The notes beneath the pieces are model-generated. The model was not told the origin of the DNA. It did no database searches and was given only the letters and a program-made list of their open reading frames with translations. The position numbers and the translations under genes were made by a program. This document shows positions 9,824-26,560 of a DNA stretch of 26,897 bases, piece after piece. Every line of letters begins with the position of its first letter. The stretch's first letter is position 1. Origin of the DNA: a virus; IMG/VR virus record IMGVR_UViG_3300037847_005421, positions 4,312-31,208 of that record. One strand, given 5' to 3'.

Positions 9824-10551
9824 ATCAATGACTTCATGTTTTCAGATACTTTAAAATTACACATCCATATCGTATAGAGTGCTCGTTCAATCATTTGACC
9901 TTCACCAGAAACTCTAGAGTGGTCTGTAAAAGTTCGTAGATTTTCGTAGAATATTCTATCATACTTTAGAATATATTCTTTAGGCACAACAAAATTTCCA
10001 CCAGGAGGAAATCTTACGTATTTCGGAAGAACAGGATTAACAAAACAAAACGATAGAAAATCATTATAGTTCGTAAAGTATTTTGTTGGATGTTTAGGAT
10101 GATTTAGATACCAACTATCGTTAAACTCCATCCATCCGCCCGCACAAGATAACATAGCATACCCCACTTTCAATGCATCTTGATCTAGATCATGAATTTC
10201 CCAGTCTTCAATTGGAGTAAAACATTGAAGATTTACTAATCGATCAAATACTTCTTGACTTACATGTCTCCCTACAGTGTTTCCTTTAATGAAAACAGTT
10301 ACATCGGGAAGATTATCATAATGATCAATAATAAATGTCATATAGTCACTAATGTTATATCCATTTGGAGATCCATTAGTAATATTATAGTCTGGATATC
10401 GATCTTTTAAATTGGATGGAGGAAGAAATGAACTATTATCATTATCAACAACGCCACCATTCCATGTCTTATCATAGATTAGATGTGGATTTGGGTAATT
10501 TTTTACCCAATCAAGATCATTATTGTAATTAGATATACAAAAAAAGTTCAT
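9820..10551 (-). CDS. DUF3431-like protein, putative glycan enzyme
   Basis: A 243-residue protein. Its N-terminus (FFCISNYNNDLDWVKNY), the YDNLPDVTVFIKGN block near residues 78-91 and the later NFVVPKEYILKYDRIFYENL stretch resemble DUF3431, a domain found in fungal and bacterial surface-carbohydrate loci. It ends in ERALYTIWMCNF, also like the family. No catalytic mechanism is established for it; a glycosyltransferase-type role is suggested by context. The start overlaps the upstream stop (ATGA), with a good GGAAGGA Shine-Dalgarno adjoining. Confidence 0.7.
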   Translation of the reverse strand: MNFFCISNYNNDLDWVKNYPNPHLIYDKTWNGGVVDNDNSSFLPPSNLKDRYPDYNITNGSPNGYNISDYMTFIIDHYDNLPDVTVFIKGNTVGRHVSQEVFDRLVNLQCFTPIEDWEIHDLDQDALKVGYAMLSCAGGWMEFNDSWYLNHPKHPTKYFTNYNDFLSFCFVNPVLPKYVRFPPGGNFVVPKEYILKYDRIFYENLRTFTDHSRVSGEGQMIERALYTIWMCNFKVSENMKSLI

Positions 10552-11477: not shown

Positions 11478-12319
11478 GCTATAAACTCCGCATATTTTTC
11501 CTGATTTTCTACAATGTAATCAGGATACGTATCATCAATACCAACTTTAGACATACGACCACGATTTAATGGATCAATACCTTGAGCAATTTTTTCTTCA
11601 GCATTTCCAACTACAGAATCAATATTGTTTTCGGTATGTTCGTAAGAAGCAAGTTTCAGTTTAAAGTTCTCCGCATCCCCAAAGAAACTCCAGTGCCATC
11701 CACCATTCTCAATTCTAAATGCATTTTGATGATCTTGACGATGTTGATCAATTGTTGTTTCTTTCAAATGTTTCCAAGTGCAAAGTCTAGATCCCATCCA
11801 TTCTGTATCATAGAGATAGTTGAGTTTGAAGTAGAAACCTCTCTGAAGACAAACATAATGATTGTTAGGATCAAACCAATCAAGATTTTCTAAAACAAGA
11901 GGATTAATAATCTCGTCAGCATCACTGGTAATAATCAAATCATCGTCACTAGCACCAGCTTTCTCAATACCAAATGCACTATTGTTTCTATTGTATAGAG
12001 CACGTTGGAATCGAATAGGAATATCGATCATCGGAGTTCCATATGGATCGGGTTCCTTATATGCCACATGAAATTTTGTCTTTTCAAGCATGTGGCTAAA
12101 GTCATTTGGAATTTCTTCCGTCACATGATGAATAATTTTATCATTAAATTTTCCAAACCTATCTTTATTTTCTTGATAGTAAAGAGGTTTTTCGTTACCG
12201 CTTACAGTAAAAGGAGATTCGGTGAGAACAAAATAATCTACAACATCATTAAGAATATTGAGTCGCATCTCAAGAAGATCCAACTCATTGAAAAAGATAA
12301 AACTGTCAAATACTTTCAT
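11474..12319 (-). CDS. Glycosyltransferase family 17
   Basis: A 281-residue GT17 protein, a family founded on beta-1,4-mannosyl-glycoprotein N-acetylglucosaminyltransferase III. The diagnostic N-terminus is DSFIFFNELDLLEMRLNIL (5-23) followed by VVDYFVLTESPFTVSG (26-41), and the acidic ITSDADEI motif lies near residue 135. I placed the start at ATG 12319, which has GAGG 8 bases upstream, rather than an in-frame TTG 6 bases earlier. This leaves a 2-base gap to the upstream gene. The bacterial members transfer unknown sugars in polysaccharide loci. Confidence 0.85.
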   Translation of the reverse strand: MKVFDSFIFFNELDLLEMRLNILNDVVDYFVLTESPFTVSGNEKPLYYQENKDRFGKFNDKIIHHVTEEIPNDFSHMLEKTKFHVAYKEPDPYGTPMIDIPIRFQRALYNRNNSAFGIEKAGASDDDLIITSDADEIINPLVLENLDWFDPNNHYVCLQRGFYFKLNYLYDTEWMGSRLCTWKHLKETTIDQHRQDHQNAFRIENGGWHWSFFGDAENFKLKLASYEHTENNIDSVVGNAEEKIAQGIDPLNRGRMSKVGIDDTYPDYIVENQEKYAEFIA

Positions 12320-12321
12320 GA

Positions 12322-13131
12322 TCAAACCTCAAATTCGTTTTCTTTTCTTAACTTTAAATTGTAATTCCAAACTGATTCAAACATAGAAGAATCAATGCCT
12401 TTTTGTTTAAGTGTATTAATCAAAGCATTAATATCTTTGGGCAAACAAGCACCACCAAATCCAAGTTCACCATCTGGTCCAGGAACCTTGGTATGATGTG
12501 CATTGATTCTATCATCATCACAAATAGCCTTTCTAACAACTTCATAGTCTGAATCAAAGTTGTTACATGTTTCATAAACGGAATTGAAATATGCAATCTT
12601 AAAAGCAAGGAAACTATTAGAGAAGTATTTGATCATCTCGGACTCATTGAATGAGACAAGATATGAAGGAACATTCTCCCACTCGGGGAATAATCCATAA
12701 AGAAAATCTCTTACATCTTTAGTATCCTCTTCTGGTCCACCAAAAACATTTCGATCACAGTTTATAAAATCTTCAACAGAATTATTTGCGGTTAGAAATT
12801 CTGGATTATGAACGATTTTTAAATTCCACTTTGCACTAGCAAGATATCGACTGAATCCAATAGGAACCGTTGACTTAATTACAAAAGTTCCTTTGACTGA
12901 TGTTGGCAATTCTTTAAAAAATTCTGCCAAATAACTAACATCACAATTACCACCCTCCGTCATTGGAGTTGGAAGGCAGATAAAGATGTAGTCACAATCC
13001 AATACATCTTCTTTGGTATTAGGTGATCGATCATGATCAACATCATAAACCTTTACTTCAACCCTATCTTTTAGATTTTGATGAATTGCATTTCCAACAA
13101 AACCATTACCAATAATTCCTACAGTTTTCAT
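12322..13131 (-). CDS. Short UDP-glucose/GDP-mannose dehydrogenase-family protein
   Basis: A 269-residue relative of the UDP-glucose dehydrogenases. The Rossmann motif GNGFVG is at 8-13, KSTVPIG at 86-92, NPEFLT at 109-114, a probable active-site Lys178 in AFKIAYFN, and catalytic Cys229 in GGACLPKD. The C-terminal UDP-binding domain of about 100 residues seen in standard enzymes is missing. The frame ends soon after the central domain, with no sign of a downstream continuation because the next gene begins at once. It may work on a different or smaller substrate, pair with another subunit, or use a different nucleotide site. ATGA overlap with the upstream gene. Confidence 0.83.
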   Translation of the reverse strand: MKTVGIIGNGFVGNAIHQNLKDRVEVKVYDVDHDRSPNTKEDVLDCDYIFICLPTPMTEGGNCDVSYLAEFFKELPTSVKGTFVIKSTVPIGFSRYLASAKWNLKIVHNPEFLTANNSVEDFINCDRNVFGGPEEDTKDVRDFLYGLFPEWENVPSYLVSFNESEMIKYFSNSFLAFKIAYFNSVYETCNNFDSDYEVVRKAICDDDRINAHHTKVPGPDGELGFGGACLPKDINALINTLKQKGIDSSMFESVWNYNLKLRKENEFEV

Positions 13132-14117
13132 TTCCAGTACTCGTAAATGTCTTTAGTTACTTCATACTCCATGTCTTTTACTTTTCTGTTTGGTTGTTTC
13201 ATTGCCCAAACAAACATGGACTCAATTAAATCTTCTAAGACAGTCTCATCTTTAAAATTCAACAATGTCTTTGCTTTAGTATGATCACAATAGGCATGTT
13301 TAACTTCATGTCTTGGTTCTCCATGTTCAATGGGAACTTCATATCCATACTTTTTACCAATACTTTGCACTGTTTCAGCAACTTGATTTAGACTGAAGTA
13401 TTTGTCTGCACCAATATTAAAGATCTCTCCATCATGATCAGTCAGAAGTTTATCAAATGGTTGCATATAATATCTAATGTCAGAGAAAGCTCGAGTCTGT
13501 TCTCCGTCTCCATAAACAAGAATAGGTTGACCATTCAATGTCTTACGAATAAAAATACCAATTACATTCCGATACCTATCCCAAATATTTTGATAGATAC
13601 CCAACACATTATGGGGACGAACAATGTTATATCTCAAACCAAATTGTTCATGTGCAAGTTTTAGATCACACTCAACAGCATACTTTGCAATTCCATATGG
13701 ATCAATTGGTTGTGGTTTCTTATCTTCAGTAAATGGTGGTTCTTGTTCACCATAGACTGCCATGGATGATGTAAAGATGATTTTTACATCATGTTTAATA
13801 CATTCATTGATAAGATTTGCAGAACAAATCAAATTATTTCTATAGTTAAAATTGCGAATGAAAGGAGAAAGTCCTTCAGCAGCATAGGCAGCAAAATGAA
13901 GAAGAACATCAGGTTTGTGTTCTTCAAACAAATCTACAATTTTTTTTCTATTTTCAAGATTTATTTTCCTAAAAATAAAATTCTCGTTTTTAGGAACAAA
14001 AGCTTTGTATCCTCCAGATAAATTATCAATACCAATTACAGTATGACCACTTTCTAAAAGATGTCTTGTATAGTTTGCACCCAGAAGTCCTGCACAACCA
14101 GTAACAAAAATTTTCAT
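13128..14117 (-). CDS. UDP-glucose 4-epimerase-like SDR (GalE-like)
   Basis: A 329-residue extended short-chain dehydrogenase. The NAD-binding glycine motif TGCAGLLG is at 6-13, a GIDNLSGG segment typical of GalE at 29-36, and the catalytic triad is Ser117/Ser118, Tyr141 and Lys145 (SSMAVYGE and DPYGIAKY). GalE-type enzymes interconvert UDP-glucose and UDP-galactose or the N-acetyl forms. Exact specificity is uncertain because related UDP-glucuronate 4-epimerases look similar, and a dehydrogenase that could supply a uronate lies immediately downstream. ATGA overlaps on both sides. Confidence 0.85.
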   Translation of the reverse strand: MKIFVTGCAGLLGANYTRHLLESGHTVIGIDNLSGGYKAFVPKNENFIFRKINLENRKKIVDLFEEHKPDVLLHFAAYAAEGLSPFIRNFNYRNNLICSANLINECIKHDVKIIFTSSMAVYGEQEPPFTEDKKPQPIDPYGIAKYAVECDLKLAHEQFGLRYNIVRPHNVLGIYQNIWDRYRNVIGIFIRKTLNGQPILVYGDGEQTRAFSDIRYYMQPFDKLLTDHDGEIFNIGADKYFSLNQVAETVQSIGKKYGYEVPIEHGEPRHEVKHAYCDHTKAKTLLNFKDETVLEDLIESMFVWAMKQPNRKVKDMEYEVTKDIYEYWK

Positions 14118-14929
14118 GCCTTATAATCTAAAATAAATTTTCTCTGTTCTTCTGTGTTCATCCAACTACAGGGAAAAACAGTGAGATAGTCTTTGAGTTC
14201 CATCTCATGAACCACAACATCTGTACCATACATCATAGTATAGTTAAGATGTTCCGTCAACAAAAGATCTGTAGTATATAGGTCTGTGATTTGAGAGGAA
14301 CATAGTGCTGCAGCCATTGCAAAAGTTCCAACTCCCGACAATGCAAGATGTTTTGCAGACATCAATGTTGCAAAATCTTCTTCGACGGTAGATGATTGAA
14401 TCGTTACCTTATTATTCTTTTTCAATTCATGAACAATTGGATTTAAATCATCTGGTTCAGTAATTAGGATTGCCTTATCGAAACTATCAATTAGATTTTC
14501 ATAAAAACAAAGTGGGTTTGGAATATAGTTTGTTGGAGGATTAAAGATACGGTGATAGTTATCGCCGCTTCTCAAATGCATTACAATTGTATCATCACCA
14601 AGAGGATCAGTAGTAGGAAGTTTTAGATACTTGGAAATTTCCAAGCATGCCCTTCTCATGTTTTCATAAACATATTCTTTCGGTAATCCTACCTCATTTC
14701 CTCCCTCAAATATTCCCTTTTCACAGTGAACTAAAGGTTCCCAAGAATAGAATCTACCACGAGCATCGACAGGGGTCTCTCCAAATTCACATCTAAACTC
14801 AGAAATAATATCATGTTGCAATTTTTGTTCAAAAGTTCCTGAAAAATTTTCAGCAAACATGTATGCATTTGCAACTTGTTGAATATTATTTCCAAGTCTT
14901 CCAGACCAATGAGAAACAGTTACTGTCAT
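14114..14929 (-). CDS. Fucosyltransferase-superfamily glycosyltransferase (GT11/GT23-like)
   Basis: A 271-residue GT-B protein with a glycine loop GRLGNNIQQVANAYMFAE (10-27), the donor motif VMHLRSGD (116-123) and a C-terminal GVGTFAMAAAL block. These correspond in order to GT11 motifs I-III, but the WWGAW signature is missing, so I place it only at superfamily level. The motif implies a GDP-sugar donor. It lies between a methyltransferase and a GalE-like epimerase, with ATGA overlaps on both sides. Confidence 0.76.
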   Translation of the reverse strand: MTVTVSHWSGRLGNNIQQVANAYMFAENFSGTFEQKLQHDIISEFRCEFGETPVDARGRFYSWEPLVHCEKGIFEGGNEVGLPKEYVYENMRRACLEISKYLKLPTTDPLGDDTIVMHLRSGDNYHRIFNPPTNYIPNPLCFYENLIDSFDKAILITEPDDLNPIVHELKKNNKVTIQSSTVEEDFATLMSAKHLALSGVGTFAMAAALCSSQITDLYTTDLLLTEHLNYTMMYGTDVVVHEMELKDYLTVFPCSWMNTEEQRKFILDYKA

Positions 14930-15684
14930 GGTTTGATAATCAATTCATTTTCAATTGCATCGATATCTTGTCCCCAGTTAACAAACTTGGGATTTTGTGG
15001 ATTGAAATGAAGATCATTCAGCCAGTTACGAATTTCAAAAACTTCATCCCAATTAATGTTTTCTTTAAACCTTGCAATAGCATCTAGAGTTTTGACCTTG
15101 ACAAATGTCATACCAAAACTAGGAGTGTAATGATTGAGTACGATGTCATCATCTTCATACGTATCCATTTCACGAACACTCTTTGGTAGATTAAAGAAAT
15201 CTGTAATGGCTACATCAACACGTTCCCATTGTTTTTCTCCGATGATATCTCCAGGACCTTCCCAATGAGAGTCATGGAAAACAAAATACCCACCTTCTTT
15301 GAGATGATCTGCCCAGAAATAAAGTTCCGCGAGAACTTGTTCGCGAGTATGAATAGTATCAACAAAAATGATATCGAAGGGATCTTCATCCCAATTTTTA
15401 CCAAGAGTCACACTATCTGCCATGTAACACATGTAGTTACTATTAACAAATCGTGCGCCATTCTTCTCAAAACCATCAAACATCAAGTCACATCCACAAA
15501 CTTGATTGTTTCGTTCTTCTGATTCCACAGACATTACTGCAGAAGAAGCACCAAGACGAACACCAAGATCAATAAATCTTGCGTCTTTATGTGTTCTTAC
15601 AAGTTCAAGAAGTTTCCATGCATTTGAACCAAGATCACAATGCGGTTCATTAATAAAGTTTTTAAGCGGGGTGAGATTAGTCAT
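14926..15684 (-). CDS. Class I SAM-dependent methyltransferase
   Basis: A 252-residue Rossmann methyltransferase related to the cephalosporin hydroxylase CmcI/Methyltransf_24 group. The SAM-binding strand and glycine loop are ARFIDLGVRLGASS, and the later DIIFVDTIHTREQV and GGYFVFHDSHWEG blocks hold the acidic and His residues typical of the group. It probably O-methylates a sugar of the glycan made by this cassette. I chose ATG 15684, which has AAGGAG 10 bases upstream; an in-frame ATG at 15693 has only 1 base between the same motif and the start. It overlaps the upstream epimerase by 8 bases. Confidence 0.82.
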   Translation of the reverse strand: MTNLTPLKNFINEPHCDLGSNAWKLLELVRTHKDARFIDLGVRLGASSAVMSVESEERNNQVCGCDLMFDGFEKNGARFVNSNYMCYMADSVTLGKNWDEDPFDIIFVDTIHTREQVLAELYFWADHLKEGGYFVFHDSHWEGPGDIIGEKQWERVDVAITDFFNLPKSVREMDTYEDDDIVLNHYTPSFGMTFVKVKTLDAIARFKENINWDEVFEIRNWLNDLHFNPQNPKFVNWGQDIDAIENELIIKP

Positions 15685-16537
15685 TAGATTCATACTCCTT
15701 TTTCATTTCATCAAATACTTTACCGATACCATCTTGGAGATTTGTTTTGGGCATCCACCATCCAAAGATATAGTTATCTGCTTCATTTCTTTTGTCCATC
15801 TGAACACTATCTTTTGCGAGTCCAGGTTTAATTTTTACATCATACTTCCCGATTCTATTGAAACATCCCTGAATAATTTCAGCGACAGCCTTAATTGATT
15901 CTGATCGGAAAGACGTAATATGCAGAGGATCTGTTGGTTTAAAATCACCATAGTGTTCCATGATAGTCTCAAGTGCTTCGCAACAATCTTCTGCATATAA
16001 GAACTGTCGTTCTTCAGTCCCATCTGTCATCATCTCAAACTCACCTTCTTCAAATCCTTTGCGAATAAAGTCAGTGATTACATGAGATTTTTCATGATCT
16101 TTCTCAATACCATAGACATTCCAAAACTTAACAGTCAATCCTTTTAAGTTTTGAGTGTACATTTCACCAACACGCTTCATGACACCATAAGGAGAGTAAC
16201 TCATGTTACTCATTTGAGATGAGGCAAAGACAAATGGTTTCCGATATTCATGCAAATACTGGAATACATTTGCCATGATTCTAGTATTGTTATTGATGAA
16301 TTCATATGTATGTTGATACTTTTTTAGATATCTAGAACCACCAACATCAAATGCAAGAAAAAATACAAAGTCAGCAAGACGAATATCATGCATCAATTTG
16401 GGATTAGGAATTTTTCTTAAGTCCTCTTGTTCTCCATTAGTAACATCAAACTCCGTAACTTCATGTCCTTTTTCATGTAAGTAATCGGTCAGATATGCAC
16501 CAATCTGACCACCAGATCCAAGAATTAAAACTTTCAT
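15677..16537 (-). CDS. NAD-dependent sugar epimerase/dehydratase (SDR)
   Basis: A 286-residue extended SDR. The glycine motif GSGGQIG is at 7-13, FDVGGSRYL at 63-71, and the catalytic Ser106/Ser107, Tyr117 and Lys121 (SSQMSNMSYSPYGVMKR). It is shorter than GalE, and the substrate cannot be assigned. It directly follows the GDP-mannose 3,5-epimerase with an ATGA overlap, so it may act on the same GDP-sugar, for example as a further epimerase or reductase. That is inference from position. Confidence 0.8.
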   Translation of the reverse strand: MKVLILGSGGQIGAYLTDYLHEKGHEVTEFDVTNGEQEDLRKIPNPKLMHDIRLADFVFFLAFDVGGSRYLKKYQHTYEFINNNTRIMANVFQYLHEYRKPFVFASSQMSNMSYSPYGVMKRVGEMYTQNLKGLTVKFWNVYGIEKDHEKSHVITDFIRKGFEEGEFEMMTDGTEERQFLYAEDCCEALETIMEHYGDFKPTDPLHITSFRSESIKAVAEIIQGCFNRIGKYDVKIKPGLAKDSVQMDKRNEADNYIFGWWMPKTNLQDGIGKVFDEMKKEYESND

Positions 16538-17619
16538 TTACTTGTTTGCTCCAAAATCCAATTGTAAGTTTTACGAATACCTTCTTCAAGAGTTTGAGAA
16601 TAATCCCAATCAAGTTTTTCTCTAATAAGATCATTGTTGGAATTACGACCACGAACACCAAGAGGACCATCAATATGAATCTTCTGAACTTCTTTATCAG
16701 AAACCTTAGCAGCGGTGTCTACTAGTTGGTTGATGGTGACCATCTCTTCAGAACCAATGTTGACAGGACCCATGAAGTCACTATCCATCAATCTTCGAGT
16801 CGCTTCAATGCATTCGTCAATGAACAGGAAGGAACGAGTCTGTAGGCCATCTCCCCACACCTCGATAGCTCCACCCTGTTCCGGGAGGTAAGCGACTTTA
16901 CGGCAGATTGCAGCTGGAGCTTTCTCTCTTCCACCGTCCCAGGTTCCTTCTGGTCCGAAGATATTGTGGTAGCGAGCAACCCTAACAGGAATGCCGTGAT
17001 TCCTATTATAAGCGAGATACAACCGCTCACTGAAGAGTTTTTCCCATCCGTATTCGGAGTCGGGGTTAGCGGGGTATGCGGATTCTTCACGGCAGTCGGG
17101 ATTATCTGGGTCAAGTTGGTTGTGTTCTGGATACATGCAAGCGGATCCAGAATAGAAAATCTTAGTTGGTTGATCCAACTTAGGTCGGTTGCATTCGGTA
17201 TATGATTTCTCCACTCCATCAAAGGTTTCGTTCAGTTGACGAACACCTTCAAGCACATTCAGGTTGATGGTGACAGAATTGTGCATAATATCTGCATCAT
17301 TCTCACCAGTAAAGACGAAACCAGCACCACCCATATCAGCAGCGAACTGATAGATCTCATCAAACGGACGGATGTGCTGATAAGGAACAGACTTGTAGTA
17401 ATTACTGAAGTGACCTTTGAACTCCAGAACAGAGTTAACGAATCCAGGACTACGAAGGTCACCAATGATGAATTCGTTTGCTTCGTGATCACTGAACTCA
17501 GGATACTTCAGGTCTACTCCGCGCACCCAATAACCCTCTGAGCGCAGGCGCTTCACCATGTGACTACCAATAAATCCACCTGCACCAAGAACCAGTGCAG
17601 TCTTCTTATAATCACTCAT
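16534..17619 (-). CDS. GDP-mannose 3,5-epimerase-like protein
   Basis: A 361-residue SDR closely matching plant-type GDP-mannose 3,5-epimerase. GAGGFIGSH is at 12-20 and ADMGGAGFV at 94-102. The catalytic block SGSACMYPE puts the reactive Cys at 161, YGWEK gives Tyr190 and Lys194, Lys233 sits in GREKAP, and GVRGRNSNN provides the nucleotide-binding Arg near 323. From memory, the spacing Cys-29-Tyr and Lys-39-Lys equals that of the plant enzyme (C145, Y174, K178, K217). The enzyme converts GDP-D-mannose to GDP-L-galactose and GDP-L-gulose. It is the first gene of the 19-gene glycan cassette, 22 bases below a promoter that overlaps a terminator. No clear Shine-Dalgarno is seen. Confidence 0.9.
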   Translation of the reverse strand: MSDYKKTALVLGAGGFIGSHMVKRLRSEGYWVRGVDLKYPEFSDHEANEFIIGDLRSPGFVNSVLEFKGHFSNYYKSVPYQHIRPFDEIYQFAADMGGAGFVFTGENDADIMHNSVTINLNVLEGVRQLNETFDGVEKSYTECNRPKLDQPTKIFYSGSACMYPEHNQLDPDNPDCREESAYPANPDSEYGWEKLFSERLYLAYNRNHGIPVRVARYHNIFGPEGTWDGGREKAPAAICRKVAYLPEQGGAIEVWGDGLQTRSFLFIDECIEATRRLMDSDFMGPVNIGSEEMVTINQLVDTAAKVSDKEVQKIHIDGPLGVRGRNSNNDLIREKLDWDYSQTLEEGIRKTYNWILEQTSK

Positions 17620-17641
17620 TTTATCAATAATGTTTCTGACA

Positions 17642-17675
17642 TATTTATTATACTAAAAAAGGACGGTTTATGCAA
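17642..17675 (-). promoter_or_regulatory. Candidate promoter of the glycan cassette, sigma70-like -10 overlapped by late-type motif
   Basis: On the minus strand a perfect TATAAT (17647-17652) lies 17 bases after TTGCAT (17670-17675, 3 of 6 match to TTGACA). The same DNA also reads AATAAATA (17642-17649), matching the NATAAATA late-promoter consensus known for T4-like cyanophages. The start codon of the epimerase gene is 22 bases downstream. The -35 and spacer fall inside the upstream terminator hairpin. Function is predicted only. Confidence 0.6.
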
Positions 17676-17681
17676 CCGTCC
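17655..17681 (-). terminator. Intrinsic terminator before the glycan cassette
   Basis: Read on the minus strand: an 8-bp perfect stem GGACGGTT/AACCGTCC with a 5-base loop (17661-17681), followed at once by six T residues (17655-17660). This is a textbook Rho-independent terminator for transcripts entering from the talC side. Confidence 0.88.
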
Positions 17682-17839
17682 TTAGTCCGTTTATGCAGGC
17701 TCGCCACCTGTTTTAGTTCAGTTGCAAAACAGGAAATCAACCACACGGAAGGGGTATTTGTTGACTCCACCACACAGTTTTTAAAGAACTGAGAAACTTC
17801 AGGGGTCTTAAGACCATCCCGACCAGGGCAGTTTTAGAG
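17682..17839 (-). other. Structured non-coding stretch upstream of the terminator
   Basis: No convincing gene is present. On the minus strand it holds a 12-base perfect palindrome GGTCTTAAGACC (17804-17815), a small CAGTT/AACTG hairpin, and an 8-bp stem CCTGTTTT/AAAACAGG with an 11-base loop (17707-17733), ending in the strong terminator. It could be a structured 3' untranslated region or a small RNA. Confidence 0.4.
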
Positions 17840-18022
17840 TCACTCCGAGACTTTAGCAGCTAATTTATCGAAGTTGATTTTTGGATTGGAACGCAGAACA
17901 GATTCAATAACTTCAATACGTCTTTGAAGTTCTGAAAACTTTTGTTCTGAAATTTGATCGTACTTTGACATAAAAACATCAGGTGACTCAGATGATTCAG
18001 ATTTTGTTGTTCTGCGTGCCAT
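17840..18022 (-). CDS. Small hypothetical protein, coiled-coil-like (60 aa)
   Basis: ATG at 18022. The N-terminal 15 residues are Ser/Thr/Glu-rich (RRTTKSESSESPD). Residues 20-45 look like an amphipathic helix (YDQISEQKFSELQRRIEVIE), and the tail is basic then acidic. An AATAAATA motif sits 25 bases upstream. It is the last gene before the structured stretch and terminator, so it closes its transcription unit. Not recognised. Confidence 0.62.
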   Translation of the reverse strand: MARRTTKSESSESPDVFMSKYDQISEQKFSELQRRIEVIESVLRSNPKINFDKLAAKVSE

Positions 18023-18046
18023 TTTATTAACTATCGATGACTAGTT

Positions 18047-18322
18047 TTATTTATTTTTAATCAAATTTGAACTAACAACATGATCTTTAACATAAGCAGG
18101 AACATTGTCAGGATCCAACCAACAGGTATAATCATGATCTTCCATAGCAGTCATCAACTGCATTTCATTATCACAAAGATACATGTCACGGTATCGTCCT
18201 GTATATGAATCTACTTTTTGAATGCGGCAATCAGGCATACCGTTGATTTCTAATTTACCCACTTGAATATAACGATAAGGAAACCTTTCAAGAAGAACGG
18301 TGGGTTTTTTAATTACTTGCAT
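18047..18322 (-). CDS. Hypothetical phage protein (91 aa)
   Basis: The start chosen is ATG 18322, where the upstream stop and this start share one base (TGATG); an in-frame ATG 18 bases earlier lies inside the upstream gene and is less likely. The protein starts with a beta-rich segment (TVLLERFPYRYIQVGKLEI) and has a central CRIQKVDSYTGRYRDMYL strand pair and a C-terminal ED-rich region with Cys and Trp. It looks like a small soluble globular protein with no export signal. Translational coupling to the 75-residue gene suggests the two are used together. Family not recognised. Confidence 0.62.
   Translation of the reverse strand: MQVIKKPTVLLERFPYRYIQVGKLEINGMPDCRIQKVDSYTGRYRDMYLCDNEMQLMTAMEDHDYTCWLDPDNVPAYVKDHVVSSNLIKNK
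18048..18055 (-). promoter_or_regulatory. Candidate late promoter motif AATAAATA
   Basis: Matches NATAAATA on the minus strand and ends 25 bases before the ATG at 18022. It overlaps the stop region of the upstream gene. Support is motif plus spacing only. Confidence 0.3.
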
Positions 18323-18549
18323 CAGACGGCAACTCCACATTCACGAAGATCTTCGCGGAGACAATCAAGAACGAGTTCATAATCATCAGTGGGATCATCA
18401 TAGAACTCAACACCTTGTTCTTGGTAAAACTTAATCAGTTTTTTGTAAACTTTGGGATGTTGCATATCAAGATCCATTTGACCTTCAACAGCGAGTTGAA
18501 AAACACTCATGGACTTTTTGAACTTGGAAGAAAACTCAGTGCGAGACAT
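18322..18549 (-). CDS. Hypothetical phage protein (75 aa)
   Basis: ATG at 18549, 23 bases below the -10 box of a near-consensus sigma70 promoter. It opens MSRTEFSSKFKKSMSVFQLA, a basic amphipathic helix, then KVYKKLIKFYQEQGVEFYDD and an acidic helical tail with two Cys (LDCLREDLRECG). It is soluble, with no signal sequence. Small proteins of this type are common in cyanomyoviruses, but I cannot name a function. It is the first gene of a three-gene unit ending at the terminator at 17655. Confidence 0.66.
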   Translation of the reverse strand: MSRTEFSSKFKKSMSVFQLAVEGQMDLDMQHPKVYKKLIKFYQEQGVEFYDDPTDDYELVLDCLREDLRECGVAV

Positions 18550-18572
18550 TGGTTGAATTTGATTACTTTGTA

Positions 18573-18601
18573 ATGATAAGACAAAAAGACGTATTTGTCA
18601 A
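18573..18601 (-). promoter_or_regulatory. Near-consensus sigma70 promoter
   Basis: On the minus strand TTGACA (18596-18601, perfect) is followed after exactly 17 bases by TATCAT (18573-18578, 5 of 6 match). It lies between talC and the 75-residue gene and points into that gene. A dyad GACAAA-N8-TTTGTC (18580-18599) overlaps the -35 and spacer and could be an operator. This is the best host-type promoter I see in the window. Confidence 0.75.
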
Positions 18602-18607
18602 TTGACT

Positions 18608-19267
18608 CTAGACACTCTTAAGACTGTCCATTGCTTCTGACCAGTCCCGATCAAAGATTTCAAGACCTTTATCGGTGAGAATATGGTCATACATCTGATC
18701 AAATACTTTGGGTGGCATTGTACAGATCTGAGCACCATTGTACCAGGAACGAACTGCCCTTTGTACACTACGAATAGATGCAGAAAGAACTTTGGTTTTA
18801 ATCCAATGACGTGAATACAGTTCCGCAATGGATCGGACAACTTCTAGTCCTGCAACTGATTGGTCATCAAGACGACCAACAAAAGGTGAAACATAAGTAG
18901 CACCCGCCTTGGCAGCAAGAACTGCTTGAGCAGCACTAAAAATAAGTGTAACGTTGACTTTAATGTTTTGTTCAGAAAGTCGTTTGCAAACAATCAAACC
19001 CTCGCGAGTGCAGGGTACTTTGATTGTAGCGACATCTCCAAATTTTTCATATAGACGAATACCTTCATCATACATCTCAAGGTCAGATCCAACGACCTCC
19101 ATGCTGATGTCTTGTACCCCAATGTCTTTGATTGTTTGATATACATCTTCAGGACTTTTACCACTCTTCATAATCAAAGTAGGATTAGTGGTAACACCAT
19201 CTACTAGTCCCGTCGAAAAATATTTTTCGATTACTTCGGTGTCTGCCGTATCAAGAAAGATCTGCAT
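18608..19267 (-). CDS. talC: Transaldolase (TalC type)
   Basis: A 219-residue small transaldolase of the TalC/fructose-6-phosphate aldolase group. The N-terminus MQIFLDTADTEVIEKY, the DGVTTNPTLI block (23-32) and the Schiff-base Lys83 in TIKVPCT are intact, as is the VTLIFSAAQAVLAAKAGA segment. It would run the non-oxidative pentose phosphate pathway, moving a dihydroxyacetone unit between sugar phosphates; cyanophage TalC is thought to push host carbon to pentose for nucleotides. I used the second ATG (19267), because the family begins right before the first strand; an ATG at 19282 adds five residues. It follows the Ser tRNA and precedes a strong promoter. Confidence 0.95.
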   Translation of the reverse strand: MQIFLDTADTEVIEKYFSTGLVDGVTTNPTLIMKSGKSPEDVYQTIKDIGVQDISMEVVGSDLEMYDEGIRLYEKFGDVATIKVPCTREGLIVCKRLSEQNIKVNVTLIFSAAQAVLAAKAGATYVSPFVGRLDDQSVAGLEVVRSIAELYSRHWIKTKVLSASIRSVQRAVRSWYNGAQICTMPPKVFDQMYDHILTDKGLEIFDRDWSEAMDSLKSV

Positions 19268-19314
19268 CACATTTGGATCCATGAGTTTTTAGTGTGTGAA
19301 ACTTATATATGAGG

Positions 19315-19399
19315 CGGAGAGGGTGGGATTTGAACCCACGGATGCTTGCACATCGCTGGTTTTCAAGACCAGTGCCATAAACCACTCGACCACCTCTCC
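19315..19399 (-). tRNA. tRNA-Ser(UGA)
   Basis: Cloverleaf on the minus strand with acceptor GGAGAGG/CCTCTCC, anticodon stem CTGGT/ACCAG around loop CTTGAAA (anticodon TGA at 19363-19365), a long variable arm as expected for Ser, and a TTCAAAT T-loop. No CCA is encoded. It lies between a small gene and talC. Confidence 0.95.
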
Positions 19400-19401
19400 A
19401 T

Positions 19402-19623
19402 TTATTTTTTAAGTGAGGCTTTAGAGTTACGAGGAACCTTGTGCCTAAACTTATCTTTCATATCATACACCAACTCATAGTTTTCTGTCAAGACATAATA
19501 ACCAGTGAGCTCTGATCCATCATCAACCCAACCATAACTAATTACTTTTTCATTTACATCATCAAGATCTAATTTTTTATCAGTATGTAAATAGTGGTTA
19601 AACTTTTGATGCAGGTTGATCAT
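19402..19623 (-). CDS. Small hypothetical protein (73 aa)
   Basis: ATG at 19623 overlaps the upstream stop as ATGA and has a strong GAGGAAAG Shine-Dalgarno just before it. The protein begins with a helical segment (NLHQKFNHYLHTDKKLDLDD), then a beta-rich part (YGWVDDGSELTGYYVLTENYELVYD) and a basic tail (RHKVPRNSKASLKK). Soluble, not recognised. It ends 3 bases before the Ser tRNA. Confidence 0.68.
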   Translation of the reverse strand: MINLHQKFNHYLHTDKKLDLDDVNEKVISYGWVDDGSELTGYYVLTENYELVYDMKDKFRHKVPRNSKASLKK

Positions 19624-19868
19624 CTTTCCTCAAAATTTAATTTACGAACTCGCCTTTGTCTGCGAGATTCTTGATATTGTAAGTCAGTTTTACTTAGAAC
19701 ACCCGTATTCTTAAGACCATCTACAGAATTCAGAAGTAAAACTTGACTTAAATCAACTGCTGTTATTTTGTTCTCGCAAACCGTCATTTGATTTGGACAC
19801 CCACAACATTGTGTCTTGGTCGTGCTGGTTAATTCTTTCTTGCACATTTTGCATCTGACAGATAACAT
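19620..19868 (-). CDS. Cys-rich zinc-ribbon-like phage protein (82 aa)
   Basis: The N-terminus holds C6-x2-C9 (RCKMCKKEL) and C21-C22-x-C24 (TQCCGCPN), a likely zinc ribbon, followed by a KITAVDLSQVLLL strand and a basic C-terminal tail (ESRRQRRVRK). I recall similar small Cys proteins in many cyanomyoviruses, with no known function; nucleic-acid binding is plausible from the basic tail. Its start at 19868 lies inside the upstream 71-residue frame, giving a 116-base out-of-frame overlap. Confidence 0.66.
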   Translation of the reverse strand: MLSVRCKMCKKELTSTTKTQCCGCPNQMTVCENKITAVDLSQVLLLNSVDGLKNTGVLSKTDLQYQESRRQRRVRKLNFEER

Positions 19869-19968
19869 AATTTAGTTTCTCCTTAATTTGTTCCAATTCT
19901 TCATGAATATCTTGATGATGAAATCTTAAAGGTTTTTGTATAAGTTTTTTTATTCTTTTATTTTTCAT
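19753..19968 (-). CDS. Small hypothetical protein overlapping the next gene (71 aa)
   Basis: ATG at 19968 overlaps the stop of the upstream HExxH gene as ATGA, a strong sign of real translation. The N-terminal half is basic then coiled-coil-like (KNKRIKKLIQK, then HEELEQIKEKLNYVICQMQN). The C-terminal half (from about residue 34) shares DNA with the zinc-ribbon gene in another frame and may be less constrained. The non-overlapping half fills what would otherwise be a 96-base gap. Real but possibly shortened or lengthened in relatives. Confidence 0.5.
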   Translation of the reverse strand: MKNKRIKKLIQKPLRFHHQDIHEELEQIKEKLNYVICQMQNVQERINQHDQDTMLWVSKSNDGLREQNNSS

Positions 19969-20630
19969 TTAATATATCCATTTTCTCGTAACCATTCGCC
20001 AGTCATGGGTGTGGGTTCATAATCACTCCACATTGTCCCAGCAGCACAAGACTGAAGTGCTTTCATTGTCATGCCCTCAGTTTTACCTGCCCAGGTTGCT
20101 TCCTTCTCCCAGGGGATAGCGTGTGGTGTGTGTTTGTAAGTATCTTTAGCAATAGCTTGCCAGATCTTAGGCACATCCTCTTCGTTATGGATGATCGCAA
20201 TCATATTATTTTTGATTGTACCTGCCATACAATCTTGGGCAGCGTGCCATCCTTCATGACGCATTACTGACATCAAAACACCAGGACGGTGCATGAATGC
20301 TTTATTAAGAAAGAAATTATTTCCTACGGTATGATAAACTCCACGATGTCCCACAGGAAAATACTTTTCATCTGCTAGAAACACCCCAACTCCGATCTGT
20401 TCAAGAGCAACGAGCATGGTGTTGAACTCGTTAGCAACAATACCAAAATTACTATTGGGATACCGATCAGCAATAGTTGCGATACTTTCAACTTTATCGA
20501 CTCCATCAACACACTCTCTAAGTAACATGCACCCCATGGCATCCATAGTATAATAACCTTTAGTCGGTTCAGCTAAGGCAGATGTGCATAAAGACATTGA
20601 TGCCATCATTGCAAGTAAGATTTTTTTCAT
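19965..20630 (-). CDS. Exported protein with HExxH zinc-peptidase-like motif (221 aa)
   Basis: I placed the start at ATG 20630 instead of an in-frame TTG 6 bases earlier. Residues 1-20 form a signal peptide (MKKILLAMMASMSLCTSALA, cleavage after ALA), so the protein should leave the cytoplasm. Residues 125-129 read HEGWH in the context MRHEGWHAAQDC, a perfect HExxH zinc motif. A third ligand is not obvious, though several Glu and His follow (HTPHAIPWEKEATW). Several Cys (about residues 34, 40 and 134) would allow disulfides. It could be a periplasmic protease or peptidoglycan-acting enzyme; no family name is assigned. It lies between tRNA-Val and three small genes. Confidence 0.75.
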   Translation of the reverse strand: MKKILLAMMASMSLCTSALAEPTKGYYTMDAMGCMLLRECVDGVDKVESIATIADRYPNSNFGIVANEFNTMLVALEQIGVGVFLADEKYFPVGHRGVYHTVGNNFFLNKAFMHRPGVLMSVMRHEGWHAAQDCMAGTIKNNMIAIIHNEEDVPKIWQAIAKDTYKHTPHAIPWEKEATWAGKTEGMTMKALQSCAAGTMWSDYEPTPMTGEWLRENGYIK

Positions 20631-20655
20631 AATCAAAAATATTCTTTTTTATATA

Positions 20656-20727
20656 TGCTTGATGACGGGATCGAACCGCCGACCTACTCCGTGTAAAGGA
20701 GTCACTCTACCTCTGAGTTAATCAAGC
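20656..20727 (-). tRNA. tRNA-Val(UAC)
   Basis: Acceptor GCTTGAT/ATCAAGC with discriminator A, anticodon stem ACTCC/GGAGT around loop TTTACAC (anticodon TAC), T-loop TTCGATC. No encoded CCA. Only 4 bases separate it from tRNA-Asn. Confidence 0.95.
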
Positions 20728-20731
20728 AAGG

Positions 20732-20803
20732 CTCCCCCGGTAGGATTTGAACCTACGACCAATCGATTAACAGTCGATGGCTCTGCCGCTGAGCTACAGG
20801 GGA
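20732..20803 (-). tRNA. tRNA-Asn(GUU)
   Basis: Acceptor TCCCCTG/CGGGGGA with one G-U pair, anticodon stem ATCGA/TCGAT around loop CTGTTAA (anticodon GTT), T-arm CGTAGG-TTCAAAT-CCTACCG. No encoded CCA. Confidence 0.95.
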
Positions 20804-20939
20804 ATAAAAATACATCAGCACTATCCTGCAGTATAGTACTGATGGGCACCAAGAGGGGTCCCACCTCTCTCTCACATGGGTTGTTATTCCGATTCTTTTT
20901 TCTCTCGGAGATGTGAGCACGGATGTCGCCAATCCGTTA
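20804..20939 (-). other. Multi-hairpin non-coding spacer between tRNA-Gly and tRNA-Asn
   Basis: Four stems lie in a row: ACGGAT/ATCCGT (20919-20937), CTCACAT/ATGTGAG with an inner TCCGA/TCGGA (20871-20917), AGAGG/CCTCT (20852-20868), and an 11-bp stem ATCAGTACTAT/ATAGTGCTGAT (20814-20843). The last pairs fully only as minus-strand RNA through a G-U wobble, and a GTATTTTTATT run follows, so it resembles a weak terminator or processing site. No gene seen. Confidence 0.5.
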
Positions 20940-21010
20940 AGCGGGTGACGGGGATCGAACCCGTGACAAGAGCTTGGAAGGCTCGCATGTTACCGCTACA
21001 CCACACCCGC
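20940..21010 (-). tRNA. tRNA-Gly(UCC)
   Basis: Acceptor GCGGGTG/CACCCGC, anticodon loop CTTCCAA (anticodon TCC) closed by a GAGC/GCTC stem, T-arm ACGGG-TTCGATC-CCCGT. No encoded CCA. A hairpin begins 2 bases after the discriminator. Confidence 0.95.
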
Positions 21011-21016
21011 ATGTCA

Positions 21017-21047
21017 GACAATTTTAACCTATGTAGGTTAGATTGTC
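21017..21047 (-). repeat. tRNA-spacer hairpin element, copy A
   Basis: Two-tier hairpin: outer stem GACAAT/ATTGTC, inner stem TAACCTA/TAGGTTA with a 2-base loop. It starts 3 bases after the 3' end of tRNA-Leu and ends 6 bases before tRNA-Gly. It shares its outer stem with copies B and C. Confidence 0.75.
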
Positions 21048-21050
21048 AAG

Positions 21051-21134
21051 TAGGACGAGAGAGACTTGAACTCTCACGAGCATATGCTCAACAGATTTTA
21101 AGTCTGGTGCGTCTACCGATTCCGCCACCGTCCC
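21051..21134 (-). tRNA. tRNA-Leu(UAA)
   Basis: Acceptor GGGACGG/TCGTCCT with G-U pairs at both ends, anticodon loop CTTAAAA (anticodon TAA), long variable arm with a GAGCATATGCTC hairpin, T-arm GAGAG-TTCAAGT-CTCTC. No encoded CCA. Confidence 0.94.
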
Positions 21135-21144
21135 TTGATGTGAG

Positions 21145-21175
21145 GACAATTATACGATTAAATCGAACAATTGTC
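21145..21175 (-). repeat. tRNA-spacer hairpin element, copy B
   Basis: Outer stem GACAATT/AATTGTC with inner stem CGAT/ATCG. It starts 2 bases after the 3' end of the CAU tRNA and ends 10 bases before tRNA-Leu. Same outer stem as copies A and C, with a different inner stem. Confidence 0.72.
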
Positions 21176-21177
21176 AA

Positions 21178-21250
21178 TGCTGGTCGCGAGGATCGAACTC
21201 GCCTTAGGCAAATTATGAGTTTGCTGCATTCACCAGATTGCTAGACCAGC
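21178..21250 (-). tRNA. tRNA-Met(CAU), or Ile2 if lysidine-modified
   Basis: Acceptor GCTGGTC/GACCAGC with discriminator A, anticodon stem GCAAA/TTTGC around loop CTCATAA (anticodon CAT), T-arm GCGAG-TTCGATC-CTCGC. It lacks the initiator GGG/CCC anticodon-stem pairs, so it is elongator Met or Ile2. Sequence alone does not decide. Confidence 0.92.
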
Positions 21251-21256
21251 GATTTA

Positions 21257-21862
21257 CTAAGAATACACTCGATTCCAGTTAACGTCAAGTGTTTTATCAA
21301 AGATCATTAAATACCGATGTTTACGGGTTCTATCACGCCATTCCCCTTCAGAACCCTTTACACTTCCCCTTGAATGTTTGGTTCCATCAGAATAATAAAA
21401 ATCTTTCTTAGGATCCGTTAACCCATAGTAGTTGAAATTACAAGCGCGGTAGATAGTTCCATCGTGACGAGAACTGTCAGCGTAACTAATAATAGCACGA
21501 ACTGTTGCATCTTTTTTAAACCTCCTGATACATCTACCAACAAACCATGAAGTGATATTATATTCTTCTTTCTGAGTTTTTGGGTCAACACAAAGTCTTG
21601 AAAGTTCAAATAAACCTTCTTGTTGATTACGTTCTAATCCAAATGCTCCTCTGGCAATTTCTGGAACTGGGAGGCCAGTAAAAACACAAGCAGCAAGGCA
21701 CTTGCCAATCCTAAGAGGACATTCCCATTCAGTACGTTTGAAAAGTCCATAGTTATACCCGGATTTAAAATCTTTTGATTCGTCTTTTAGATAGTGATGA
21801 GTATAAAGAAGTTCCTTTATATCTTCTTTACTAACTCTATCTATATAAAAATCAGATTTCAT
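21257..21862 (-). CDS. Mom-like DNA-modification protein
   Basis: A 201-residue protein that looks like the phage Mu Mom family, a GNAT-fold enzyme that adds a carbamoylmethyl group to adenine and protects phage DNA from restriction. Conserved-looking blocks, in order: HHYLK (22-26), FELSRL (85-90), NITSWFVGRCIRRF (102-115), IISYADSSRHDGTIYRACNF (124-143) and YYGL. The ELSRL and SYAD-H-G-IY-A-NF patterns are characteristic. No Com-type activator is seen next to it. It sits inside the tRNA cluster, 6 bases upstream of the CAU tRNA. Family assignment is from memory of the motif pattern. Confidence 0.78.
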   Translation of the reverse strand: MKSDFYIDRVSKEDIKELLYTHHYLKDESKDFKSGYNYGLFKRTEWECPLRIGKCLAACVFTGLPVPEIARGAFGLERNQQEGLFELSRLCVDPKTQKEEYNITSWFVGRCIRRFKKDATVRAIISYADSSRHDGTIYRACNFNYYGLTDPKKDFYYSDGTKHSRGSVKGSEGEWRDRTRKHRYLMIFDKTLDVNWNRVYS

Positions 21863-21872
21863 TTAAGTATTT

Positions 21873-22043
21873 TTACTCACTTTGTTTGCATTCCAATATA
21901 TATTCTACAGTATTTGCAACATCATTCATTGCATCACGAAGATGTGTTTGTTGCCCTGACTCTTGACACATTCGATTACTCTCATCCGCAAGTGTCCAAC
22001 GCCATTTTTTCATGCTGGTACAATACCAAAGATTAATTTTCAT
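21873..22043 (-). CDS. Small hypothetical protein (56 aa)
   Basis: ATG at 22043. An in-frame upstream ATG would read through tRNA-Thr and is rejected. The protein starts MKINLWYCTSMKKWRWTL, rich in aromatics and basic residues, then a helical acidic part (LRDAMNDVANTVEYILECK). A hairpin GAGTT/AACTC lies just before the start, between it and tRNA-Thr. Only 10 bases separate it from the Mom-like gene, so the two are probably co-expressed. Not recognised. Confidence 0.6.
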   Translation of the reverse strand: MKINLWYCTSMKKWRWTLADESNRMCQESGQQTHLRDAMNDVANTVEYILECKQSE

Positions 22044-22063
22044 GTTAGAGTTATAGAACTCAG

Positions 22064-22135
22064 AGCCCTCGACTGGATTTGAACCAGCAATCTTTGCTTT
22101 ACAAAAGCACTGCATCACCGTTATGCTACAAGGGC
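22064..22135 (-). tRNA. tRNA-Thr(UGU)
   Basis: Acceptor GCCCTTG/CGAGGGC with one G-U pair, anticodon loop TTTGTAA (anticodon TGT), T-arm GCTGG-TTCAAAT-CCAGT. The top pair of the anticodon stem is a G-A mismatch. A small hairpin (22048-22061) begins 2 bases after its 3' end. Confidence 0.92.
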
Positions 22136-22139
22136 AAGG

Positions 22140-22213
<74 letters not shown>

Positions 22214-22217
22214 ATGG

Positions 22218-22247
22218 GACAATCATACCAGAACTGGTCAGATTGTC
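22218..22247 (-). repeat. tRNA-spacer hairpin element, copy C
   Basis: Outer stem GACAATC/GATTGTC, inner stem ACCAG/CTGGT with a TT loop. It starts 2 bases after tRNA-Ile and ends 4 bases before tRNA-Arg. It is the most compact copy of the element. Confidence 0.76.
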
Positions 22248-22249
22248 AA

Positions 22250-22321
22250 TAGGATTGTCGGGAATTGAACCCGATTCACACCGTTATAAGCAGTGGGCCT
22301 TAACCAATAGGCGACAATCCC
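22250..22321 (-). tRNA. tRNA-Ile(UAU)
   Basis: Acceptor GGGATTG/CAATCCT, anticodon stem CACTG/CGGTG around loop CTTATAA (anticodon TAT, reading AUA), T-arm TCGGG-TTCAATT-CCCGA. No encoded CCA. It is the first tRNA of the cluster in transcription order. Confidence 0.94.
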
Positions 22322-22322
22322 A

Positions 22323-22355
22323 ACATCAATCGTGAATCATGATTGATGTATTATA
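22323..22355 (-). promoter_or_regulatory. Candidate -10 box and leader hairpin of the tRNA cluster
   Basis: TATAAT (22350-22355) is followed directly by a perfect 9-bp hairpin ACATCAATC/GATTGATGT (22323-22349) that ends 1 base before tRNA-Ile. No good -35 is found at 16-18 bases. The box shares the string TAGTATAATA with the cassette promoter at 17647. Promoter activity is uncertain; the hairpin itself is clear. Confidence 0.4.
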
Positions 22356-22368
22356 CTATATTTTTGAA

Positions 22369-22944
22369 TCATTTCAGTACCAATTTCGTAATGTAATCAT
22401 ATGCATACTGTTGACGATACCCCTTGATTCCCCACCCCAACCAGTAGTATGCTGAAACCATATACTGATCAATAGTTTTTCCACGACCTTCAAACTCAGG
22501 AAGGTATCGTTGGAACACAGATTCATTGATCATATACCGAGTCTGACCCTCAAGACTGCTTGGATCGCATCTATATTTCTCACAGAACTTACCGAGATTA
22601 TTATAACGTCTTACTGAGGTCCACTGAATAAGACCATAACCACCGCGATGGCAATTCCCGTAAGAAACTCTAGCCCCTCCCTCGCATATGTTGGCACGGA
22701 AGTTAGACTCCTGTTTGATATTTCCCATGATCGTAGCAAGAGCATTACGATCTGAGATCTTGGTTTGTTCTTGGAGTTCTGCAAGGACATATTGTTCTTC
22801 TGGCGTGCAATCTTCACACTTCCATGATGATTCATGAGGAATTACAGGAATAGTTTGGATCTCAGGTGCCTCCGTTGCATGAGGAATTTGTGGACTAGTA
22901 AGACCTACCGCAAGGGCAGCAGAAGCAATCAAAGTCTTAAGCAT
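22369..22944 (-). CDS. Exported phage lysozyme (Phage_lysozyme2-like)
   Basis: A 191-residue muramidase-like protein. I placed the start at ATG 22944, preceded by AGGAAAG and overlapping the upstream stop by 8 bases; a longer frame upstream lies within the neighbouring gene. Residues 1-23 look like a signal sequence (MLKTLIASAALAVGLTS). The catalytic domain includes IMGNIKQESNF (72-82, with E79 a likely catalytic Glu) and GGYGLIQWT (101-109), matching the tail-lysozyme-type domain. Six Cys (43, 46, 87, 98, 121, 126) suggest disulfides outside the cytoplasm. It probably degrades peptidoglycan at lysis or works in the periplasm. No holin is visible beside it. Confidence 0.83.
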   Translation of the reverse strand: MLKTLIASAALAVGLTSPQIPHATEAPEIQTIPVIPHESSWKCEDCTPEEQYVLAELQEQTKISDRNALATIMGNIKQESNFRANICEGGARVSYGNCHRGGYGLIQWTSVRRYNNLGKFCEKYRCDPSSLEGQTRYMINESVFQRYLPEFEGRGKTIDQYMVSAYYWLGWGIKGYRQQYAYDYITKLVLK

Positions 22945-23368
22945 CGAAGTAGTCTTTCCTATAATAACGACCGAGAATGTTTGAATTATAGTACGCAGGC
23001 GTACCACTGTCAAGTGCCTTAGTCAGAACGTCGTGAAGAAAAAGTTGTCGGGTCTCTTCGTAGTTGACCCTTCCAGGTGTCTTATGTAAGCTGAGAATTT
23101 CTCTAACAAAACATTCTTTTCCAAAGAGTTTGATGTCGTCTTTTAGTTCTGGACATGACCCGTAATATTTTTTCCAGTTACTTTCACTAGTAACTCTCCT
23201 CTTACCACCTTTGGGTTTTCTCTTTTGCCAAAAATACTTTCGCCCAATGTACTGTCGTTCGTTGGACTGATTGGTAATTTTATAAACAAAACCCCAGTTG
23301 TCCCCAATAAGGCTCCCATCAAACACGGTGCCCATATATTTCCAAGGGTTTGGGTAACTTTCTTCCAC
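22937..23368 (-). CDS. GIY-YIG-like putative endonuclease
   Basis: A 143-residue protein. The GFVYKITNQSNERQYIGRKY segment (26-45) fits the GIY-YIG nuclease core, with VY and YIG at the usual spacing and Arg43 just after, where the catalytic Arg is expected. A basic KRKPKGGKRR loop follows and a Glu pair (YEE) lies near residue 104. Similar small free-standing proteins in T4-like phages are annotated as putative homing or Seg-like endonucleases. The start is GTG at 23368 (no ATG in frame before a stop), 23 bases below an AATAAATA motif. Activity is unproven. Confidence 0.68.
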   Translation of the reverse strand: MEESYPNPWKYMGTVFDGSLIGDNWGFVYKITNQSNERQYIGRKYFWQKRKPKGGKRRVTSESNWKKYYGSCPELKDDIKLFGKECFVREILSLHKTPGRVNYEETRQLFLHDVLTKALDSGTPAYYNSNILGRYYRKDYFDA

Positions 23369-23384
23369 ATCATCATAACAAAAC

Positions 23385-23549
23385 CTATGAGTATTTATTC
23401 ATCCCACGGATCTGGTATTTGTATTTCATTGCTTGAAGAAACCATGCATCTGTCAGACACTTTGGACCATGAAGCAGAACTTGCACCTGCTTTTCTGGCA
23501 GATTTGGATCTGATAGTGCTCTTTTCTTCCACTCTGGAAGTTCATTCAT
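23385..23549 (-). CDS. Small hypothetical protein (54 aa)
   Basis: ATG 23549 to TAG 23385 on the minus strand fills most of the 200-base gap between the carbamoyltransferase and the endonuclease. It reads MNELPEWKKRALSDPNLPEK, then VLLHGPKCLTDAWFLQAM and a basic aromatic tail (YKYQIRGMNKYS). It starts 20 bases after the upstream stop. A weak GGA lies near the start. The composition looks like a real small soluble protein. Not recognised. Confidence 0.55.
   Translation of the reverse strand: MNELPEWKKRALSDPNLPEKQVQVLLHGPKCLTDAWFLQAMKYKYQIRGMNKYS
23392..23399 (-). promoter_or_regulatory. Candidate late promoter motif AATAAATA
   Basis: Matches NATAAATA on the minus strand, 23 bases before the GTG start at 23368, within the end of the 54-residue gene. 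Its spacing matches the sites at 17642 and 18048. Confidence 0.35.
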
Positions 23550-23569
23550 GGTCCAAAACCGATAGAAGT

Positions 23570-25384: not shown

Positions 25385-25389
25385 ATTGA

Positions 25390-26520: not shown

Positions 26521-26560
26521 ACCTTGAATGGATGACGTTTCTTCTTTTTTAGAGATTGTT

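Follow-up and report, generated by a model that had tools for sequence, protein, structure and literature searches.

A terminator hairpin with a nested promoter before a cyanophage glycan operon: a probable boundary cassette of the PeSL kind

Genes and signals at the junction

The DNA analysed here, referred to as the window, is a stretch of 26,897 nucleotides (positions 4,312 to 31,208) of the IMG/VR virus record IMGVR_UViG_3300037847_005421. The source record comprises 32,242 bases and is related to the T4-like cyanophages of Synechococcus. On the minus strand of the window, a short segment separates the small ORFs that make up an upstream unit (18549-17840) from a run of ORFs that starts with an epimerase gene at 17619 (Table 1). 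Nine proteins of this run were tested, of which eight match sugar, glycosyltransferase or methyltransferase families and one is without a match; the run is referred to below as the glycan operon. The upstream unit likely starts at the promoter-like site listed in Table 1, and its last ORF has no match in PHROG. Where the transcript presumably starts, an ORF of eight codons begins (MSETLLIK, 17642-17617, minus strand); its end overlaps the start codon of the epimerase gene as ATGA.

Immediately upstream of the segment lies an array of wcaG-type hairpins, which had been missed in the earlier note on this DNA. Its match to the wcaG RNA model is at the bare minimum, whereas relatives score up to 104 bits against RF01761, and the unit ending in TGGCGAGCCTG that closes the array here also closes the wcaG RNAs of relatives.

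Table 1. Features of the junction and of the upstream unit in the window
Feature	Position	Strand	Basis
NAD-dependent epimerase/dehydratase, 361 aa, glycan operon gene 1	16534..17619	-	ORF list, family matches
AATAAATA, late-promoter-like, judged fortuitous	17642..17649	-	motif counts, relatives
-10 element TATAAT	17647..17652	-	direct reading, relatives
17-base spacer (loop end, 3' arm and T-tract)	17653..17669	-	direct reading
T-tract, overlaps stem base, inside promoter spacer	17655..17660	-	direct reading
Intrinsic terminator hairpin AAGGACGGTT-GCATA-AACCGTCCTT, 10 pairs, 5-base loop	17659..17683	-	direct reading, folding, relatives
-35-like TTGCAT, top of 5' arm and loop	17670..17675	-	direct reading
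Last unit of wcaG-type hairpin array: stem-loop then TGGCGAGCCTG, 12 bases before terminator	17696..17733	-	sequence
wcaG RNA (RF01761) match, 42.0 bits, exactly the gathering score (42)	17758..17855	-	covariance model
60-aa ORF, last of upstream unit; stop codon within RNA array	17840..18022	-	
Small ORF of upstream unit, phrog_481, unknown function	18047..18340	-	
Small ORF of upstream unit, phrog_552, unknown function	18322..18549	-	
Promoter-like TTGACA-17-TATCAT, 11/12	18573..18601	-	promoter scan

The hairpin and its T-tract fold at -15.5 kcal/mol (z -6.7), and none of 200 shuffles folds as well. Five of its pairs are G-C, the maximum among the 19 terminator-like sites found in 10000-26897, where shuffles give 8.9. 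The earlier note had described a terminator stem-loop carrying TTGCAT at its stem edge and loop, with a T-tract inside a 17-base spacer, followed by TATAAT, and direct reading of the minus strand bears this out; the late-promoter-like octamer that it placed over the -10 element is also present, but is not conserved among relatives. Measured against the sigma70 type (TTGACA-like, spacer of about 17, TATAAT), the window promoter has a -10 element of 6/6, a spacer of 17 and a -35 element of only 3/6, and relatives reach 12/12. A generic promoter scan does not list the nested site of the window and gives no promoter excess in the region (54 found against 58.4 expected). Despite its weak -35 element, the site gains credibility from relatives, which favour TTGCAT together with the 17-base spacing. 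Elsewhere in the window, three strong promoters begin exactly at tRNA 3' ends (tRNA-Met, 21177-21149; tRNA-Ile, 22249-22222; tRNA-Leu, 21049-21021; all minus strand).

Nested cassettes in relatives and in isolated phages

The region before the epimerase gene was compared across 81 loci, namely the window and the best 80 of at least 600 IMG/VR relatives; these loci are phylogenetically related, and their counts are not independent. A terminator with a -10 element of at least 5/6 at 4-11 bases from the stem is found at 42 of these 81 loci, giving 34 distinct cassettes besides that of the window, in which the -35 words are mainly TTGACA, TTTACA and TTGCAT. Promoters of at least 9/12 occur in the 110 bases upstream at 72 of the 81, against 18.6 in mononucleotide shuffles, and mostly lie 22-30 bases before the start codon. 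According to the scanner, hairpin nesting is absent from 39 of the 81 loci in this best-80 set, two of which (L003 and L069) show imperfect nesting by eye; nesting is therefore not required for the operon. Where the hairpin is absent, the promoter is usually kept; its -35 element then falls within the final codons of the preceding ORF or, at one locus (L055), at the end of a tRNA.

Ten isolated phages (seven cyanophages together with T4, RB49 and HTVC008M) were scanned for the same arrangement, with the expectation obtained by permutation, that is, by pairing hairpins with the tails of other terminators. The seven cyanophages hold 11 nested promoters of at least 11/12 against 0.82 expected, one of these strong cases being common to S-SM2 and Bellamy; there are 13 against 4.0 at 10/12, and the excess is small at the loosest cut-off of 9/12 (24 against 17.7). 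T4, RB49 and HTVC008M show no excess (0, 1 and 3 nested promoters against 0.03, 0.7 and 3.3 expected) and no strong case, and S-SSM7 has no nested promoter of at least 10/12. Tail exchange shows that cyanophage hairpins and their own tails fit each other. Positions differ as well: the 241 cyanophage terminators include 12 with a promoter of at least 10/12 whose start precedes the end of the stem by 25 to 11 bases (expectation about 0.4 for each 5-base bin), whereas among the 79 terminators of T4 and RB49 none starts there and 14 start 13 to 32 bases after the stem. A generic excess of -10 elements near terminators was rejected as a nesting signal, being not specific (T4 also has 23 against 9.6 expected).

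The nested cassettes of isolated cyanophages precede unrelated genes. Examples are the hli03 genes of S-SM2 and S-PM2, which both have one in front, and P-SSM4, which has three (at gp32/phosphodiesterase, ahead of a hypothetical gene, and at dam/helicase). A strict pattern of TTGACA, T5 and TATNAT occurs in just 3 of 23 records, two of which are RB49 and Phi1, so the nested form is not a fixed sequence.

wcaG RNAs and homology breaks at the junctions

wcaG RNAs have been described in potential 5' UTRs (PMC2864571, in the excerpts used here). In the window, the array before the terminator is what resembles RF01761; unlike the described placement, its RNA lies upstream of both terminator and promoter. 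Searches of whole records gave 50 places over the cut-off, of which 47 were used after the upstream member of each of three tandem pairs was dropped, and the scanner places a terminator soon after the RNA in 40 of the 47. This set came from records chosen by the epimerase, and a motif-only scan was repeated independently of the epimerase. The 14-base motif gave at least 123 matches, namely 69 with the canonical last unit TGGCG[AT]GCNTG (64 distinct) and 54 others. Among the matches listed, 51 of the 64 distinct canonical RNAs are followed by a terminator with a nested promoter, 8 by a terminator only and 5 by neither, and the terminators begin 6-20 bases after the RNA in 59 of the 64. Because the nested promoter is downstream of the RNA, its transcripts would lack wcaG, and the RNA would be present only in read-through transcripts. 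Of the 69 canonical matches listed, 2 have a promoter of at least 10/12 in the 300 bases upstream of the RNA.

The flanks of these RNAs differ in kind. An ORF ends shortly before the array in 65 of the 69 canonical matches listed, with the array starting a median of 34 bases past its stop, and these upstream ORFs belong to several unrelated small families. Eighteen hand-picked downstream proteins include eight sugar or sugar-nucleotide enzymes, three other transferases (cytidylyltransferase-like, hexapeptide and carbamoyl-), two 2OG oxygenases, one radical SAM protein and four without a match. The wcaG RNAs form the end of longer arrays of similar hairpins with GTGG-type words (17696-17862, minus strand, in the window; L070:2715-2920; L034; L019), and the Rfam wcaG model covers two array units, with tandem matches occurring. 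At L262 and L305, a wcaG RNA without a terminator has an ATG within about 20 bases, and these two RNAs are possibly true 5' leaders. PMC2864571, PMC9602691, PMC9964418, PMC10665884 and PMC12197685, in the excerpts used, say nothing about a terminator or promoter next to wcaG RNA. The terminator side may already be on record, since Weinberg et al. state that terminators are annotated in their alignment files.

Pooling the epimerase-set cassettes with those behind wcaG RNAs (among the matches listed) gives 66 distinct cores. They had been pre-selected for a -35-like word at a spacing of 16-18, and the following -35 and spacer figures lean that way: TTGCAT is the commonest -35 word (29 of 66), the spacer is 17 in 64 and the -35 element starts 1-3 bases before the end of the 5' arm in 65. 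The cores have 27 different lower stems, and pair positions 2-8 vary among GC, CG, AT and TA, which amounts to covariation. Among the 59 distinct terminators behind wcaG RNAs in the matches listed, one of the listed -35 words is found at the edge of the loop in 48 of the 54 that have a -10 element, against one of the five that lack it (Fisher p 0.002), so the -35 word is coupled to the -10 element.

Homology between phages can span the whole module and stop just after TATAAT, a point that had also escaped the earlier note. Forty-eight wcaG-junction loci (among the matches listed) were compared in 1128 pairs, in which upstream similarity can include array repeats. The upstream side and the module are shared, and the downstream gene is not, in 197 pairs, against 19 with the module and downstream gene in common and the upstream side different; 64 pairs share all three and 137 the module alone. 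Two pairs were aligned as a check. In L243 and L297, similarity runs through RNA, hairpin and TATAAT and is lost immediately behind it; L341 and L361 share 99.4% identity across 500 bases upstream, diverge between RNA and -10 element, and have unrelated downstream genes.

Boundary cassettes, alternative readings and meaning

The name PeSL (promoter early stem-loop) denotes composite terminator-promoter cassettes through which T4-like phages shuffle genes. They were reportedly described by Arbiol and co-workers in 2010 and by Comeau and co-workers in 2014. The phrase "promoter early stem-loop" itself gave no match in a literature search. The PeSL papers are cited in PMC4503421, where, in the excerpt used, S-PM2 is reported with only sparse PeSL-like elements. 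The segment resembles these cassettes in that an intrinsic terminator and a sigma70-type promoter appear to be combined in one short junction between gene blocks of a T4-like phage, and in that homology lies at the cassette with different genes on a side, a likeness drawn here from comparative breaks. It differs in that its -35 element is part of the hairpin and its T-tract part of the spacer. In RB49 (12 cases) and T4 (2 cases) the -35 element starts 13-19 or 30-32 bases after the stem, in tandem, a layout that is measured in RB49 rather than taken from the papers' definition and that the cyanophage cassettes do not show. We consider that the segment is best read as a boundary cassette of the PeSL kind, in the nested variant of a T4-like cyanophage, with a probability of about three in four. 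It looks like a joint for swapping gene blocks between cyanophages. As for the earlier note, its proposal that one short segment ends the upstream unit and starts the glycan operon, with the -35 element in the hairpin, gains support from a recurrence in cyanophages far above chance.

A somewhat unlikely alternative is that terminator and promoter are each selected and overlap for want of intergenic space, with neither coupling nor a role in exchange. This accounts for every sequence fact save the homology breaks, and the same economy is seen where no terminator is present and the -35 element is placed in the final codons of the preceding ORF or where a tRNA ends (in 8 of 79 tRNAs of the window and seven cyanophages, a promoter of at least 10/12 starts at -1 or 0 from the tRNA end, against 4 across positions 10-99). 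Homology that ends at the -10 element in otherwise different neighbourhoods argues against it, and could itself reflect selection for a working joint.

The close succession of canonical wcaG RNA and terminator admits a further reading, which we regard as unlikely, in which wcaG is a riboswitch aptamer, the terminator is its expression platform, a ligand sets the read-through from the upstream unit into the glycan operon and the nested promoter is a bypass. wcaG is listed as a possible switch by Weinberg et al. 2010 (in the excerpt used), and the varied upstream families contrast with downstream proteins of which 11 of the 18 hand-picked are sugar, nucleotidyl-, acyl- or carbamoyl-transfer enzymes. 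This reading is weakened by the failure to find a covarying antiterminator: the longest pairing between the 5' arm and the RNA region is 7.27 bases, and exchanging arms among loci gives 7.16. The nested promoter would moreover bypass terminator control, and nested cassettes exist without a wcaG RNA (e.g., L007, L028 and L036, with none found in their records). Among the matches listed, 15 of the 54 non-canonical ones are wcaG-like by eye, and only 7 of these arrays with other last units have a terminator within 330 bases, one of them nested.

The earlier note had also proposed a dual early/late promoter, used by host-type and phage late polymerase, with termination and initiation interfering as a timing switch. 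The window does hold one octamer, AATAAATA, that matches the T4-type late promoter (NATAAATA) and overlaps the -10 element; ATAAATA is a known late motif in S-PM2 and Syn9 (PMC2984593, in the excerpt used), and these phages in general carry it in front of genes far more often than expected (Syn9, 14 against 0.7 expected; Bellamy, 25 against 1.0; figures cited without S-SM2, S-PM2, P-SSM4 and T4). Unlike a conserved element, however, ATAAATA falls on the -10 element in 2 of 34 distinct epimerase-set cassettes (window and L036) and in 1 of 54 in the wcaG set (among the matches listed), shows no excess in the window (5 against 9.5 expected), and occurs in the 70 bases before the gene at wcaG junctions in 0 of 51 upstream and 1 of 55 downstream cases (among the matches listed). 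The late promoter at the segment was thus rejected, and a dual promoter with a timing switch, for which the geometry alone speaks, is very improbable. Late transcription of the upstream unit as the reason for the terminator was likewise rejected, on the upstream count. Another ATAAATA, at 18048-18054 (minus strand) between ORFs 18047-18340 and 17840-18022, is a better-placed late-promoter candidate than AATAAATA.

Under the preferred reading of a boundary cassette, transcripts of the upstream unit, carrying the small ORFs and the wcaG-type array, would end at the intrinsic terminator, and a promoter of host sigma70 type, probably used early, would start the glycan operon at about 17640; both positions follow from established terminator and sigma70 promoter anatomy. 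Nesting fits both signals into about 45 bases, so that end and start would move as one during exchanges of gene blocks, and the cassette would act as a recombination joint, as the PeSL cassettes of other T4-like phages do. As RNA release would fall inside the promoter, an initiation complex waiting there would exclude an incoming elongating polymerase and vice versa, and a polymerase that releases its RNA in the T-tract would already be on the promoter and may reinitiate there. Kang et al. 2020 (PMC6978380, in the excerpt used) report that polymerase remains on the DNA after RNA release, diffuses, and is able to start again at promoters close by. That is an in vitro property of E. coli polymerase rather than a sequence family, the likeness here is one of geometry, and the promoter, unlike in the nearby-promoter case, is at the termination site itself. 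It is quite doubtful that the coupling goes so far that the terminating polymerase, after regaining sigma, feeds the glycan operon from upstream transcription with the RNA cut off between, and that the wcaG RNA, for years annotated as a 5' leader, belongs mainly to the 3' end of the preceding unit, where it may tune the hand-over.

If the preferred reading is true, a compact standard joint would let cyanophages exchange gene blocks while the transcription of the neighbours stays undisturbed. Most canonical wcaG RNAs would lie upstream of a terminator and promoter, which changes the transcripts expected to carry them and the experiments that would reveal their role. The cassettes would also offer a natural test bed for termination feeding initiation on the same DNA.
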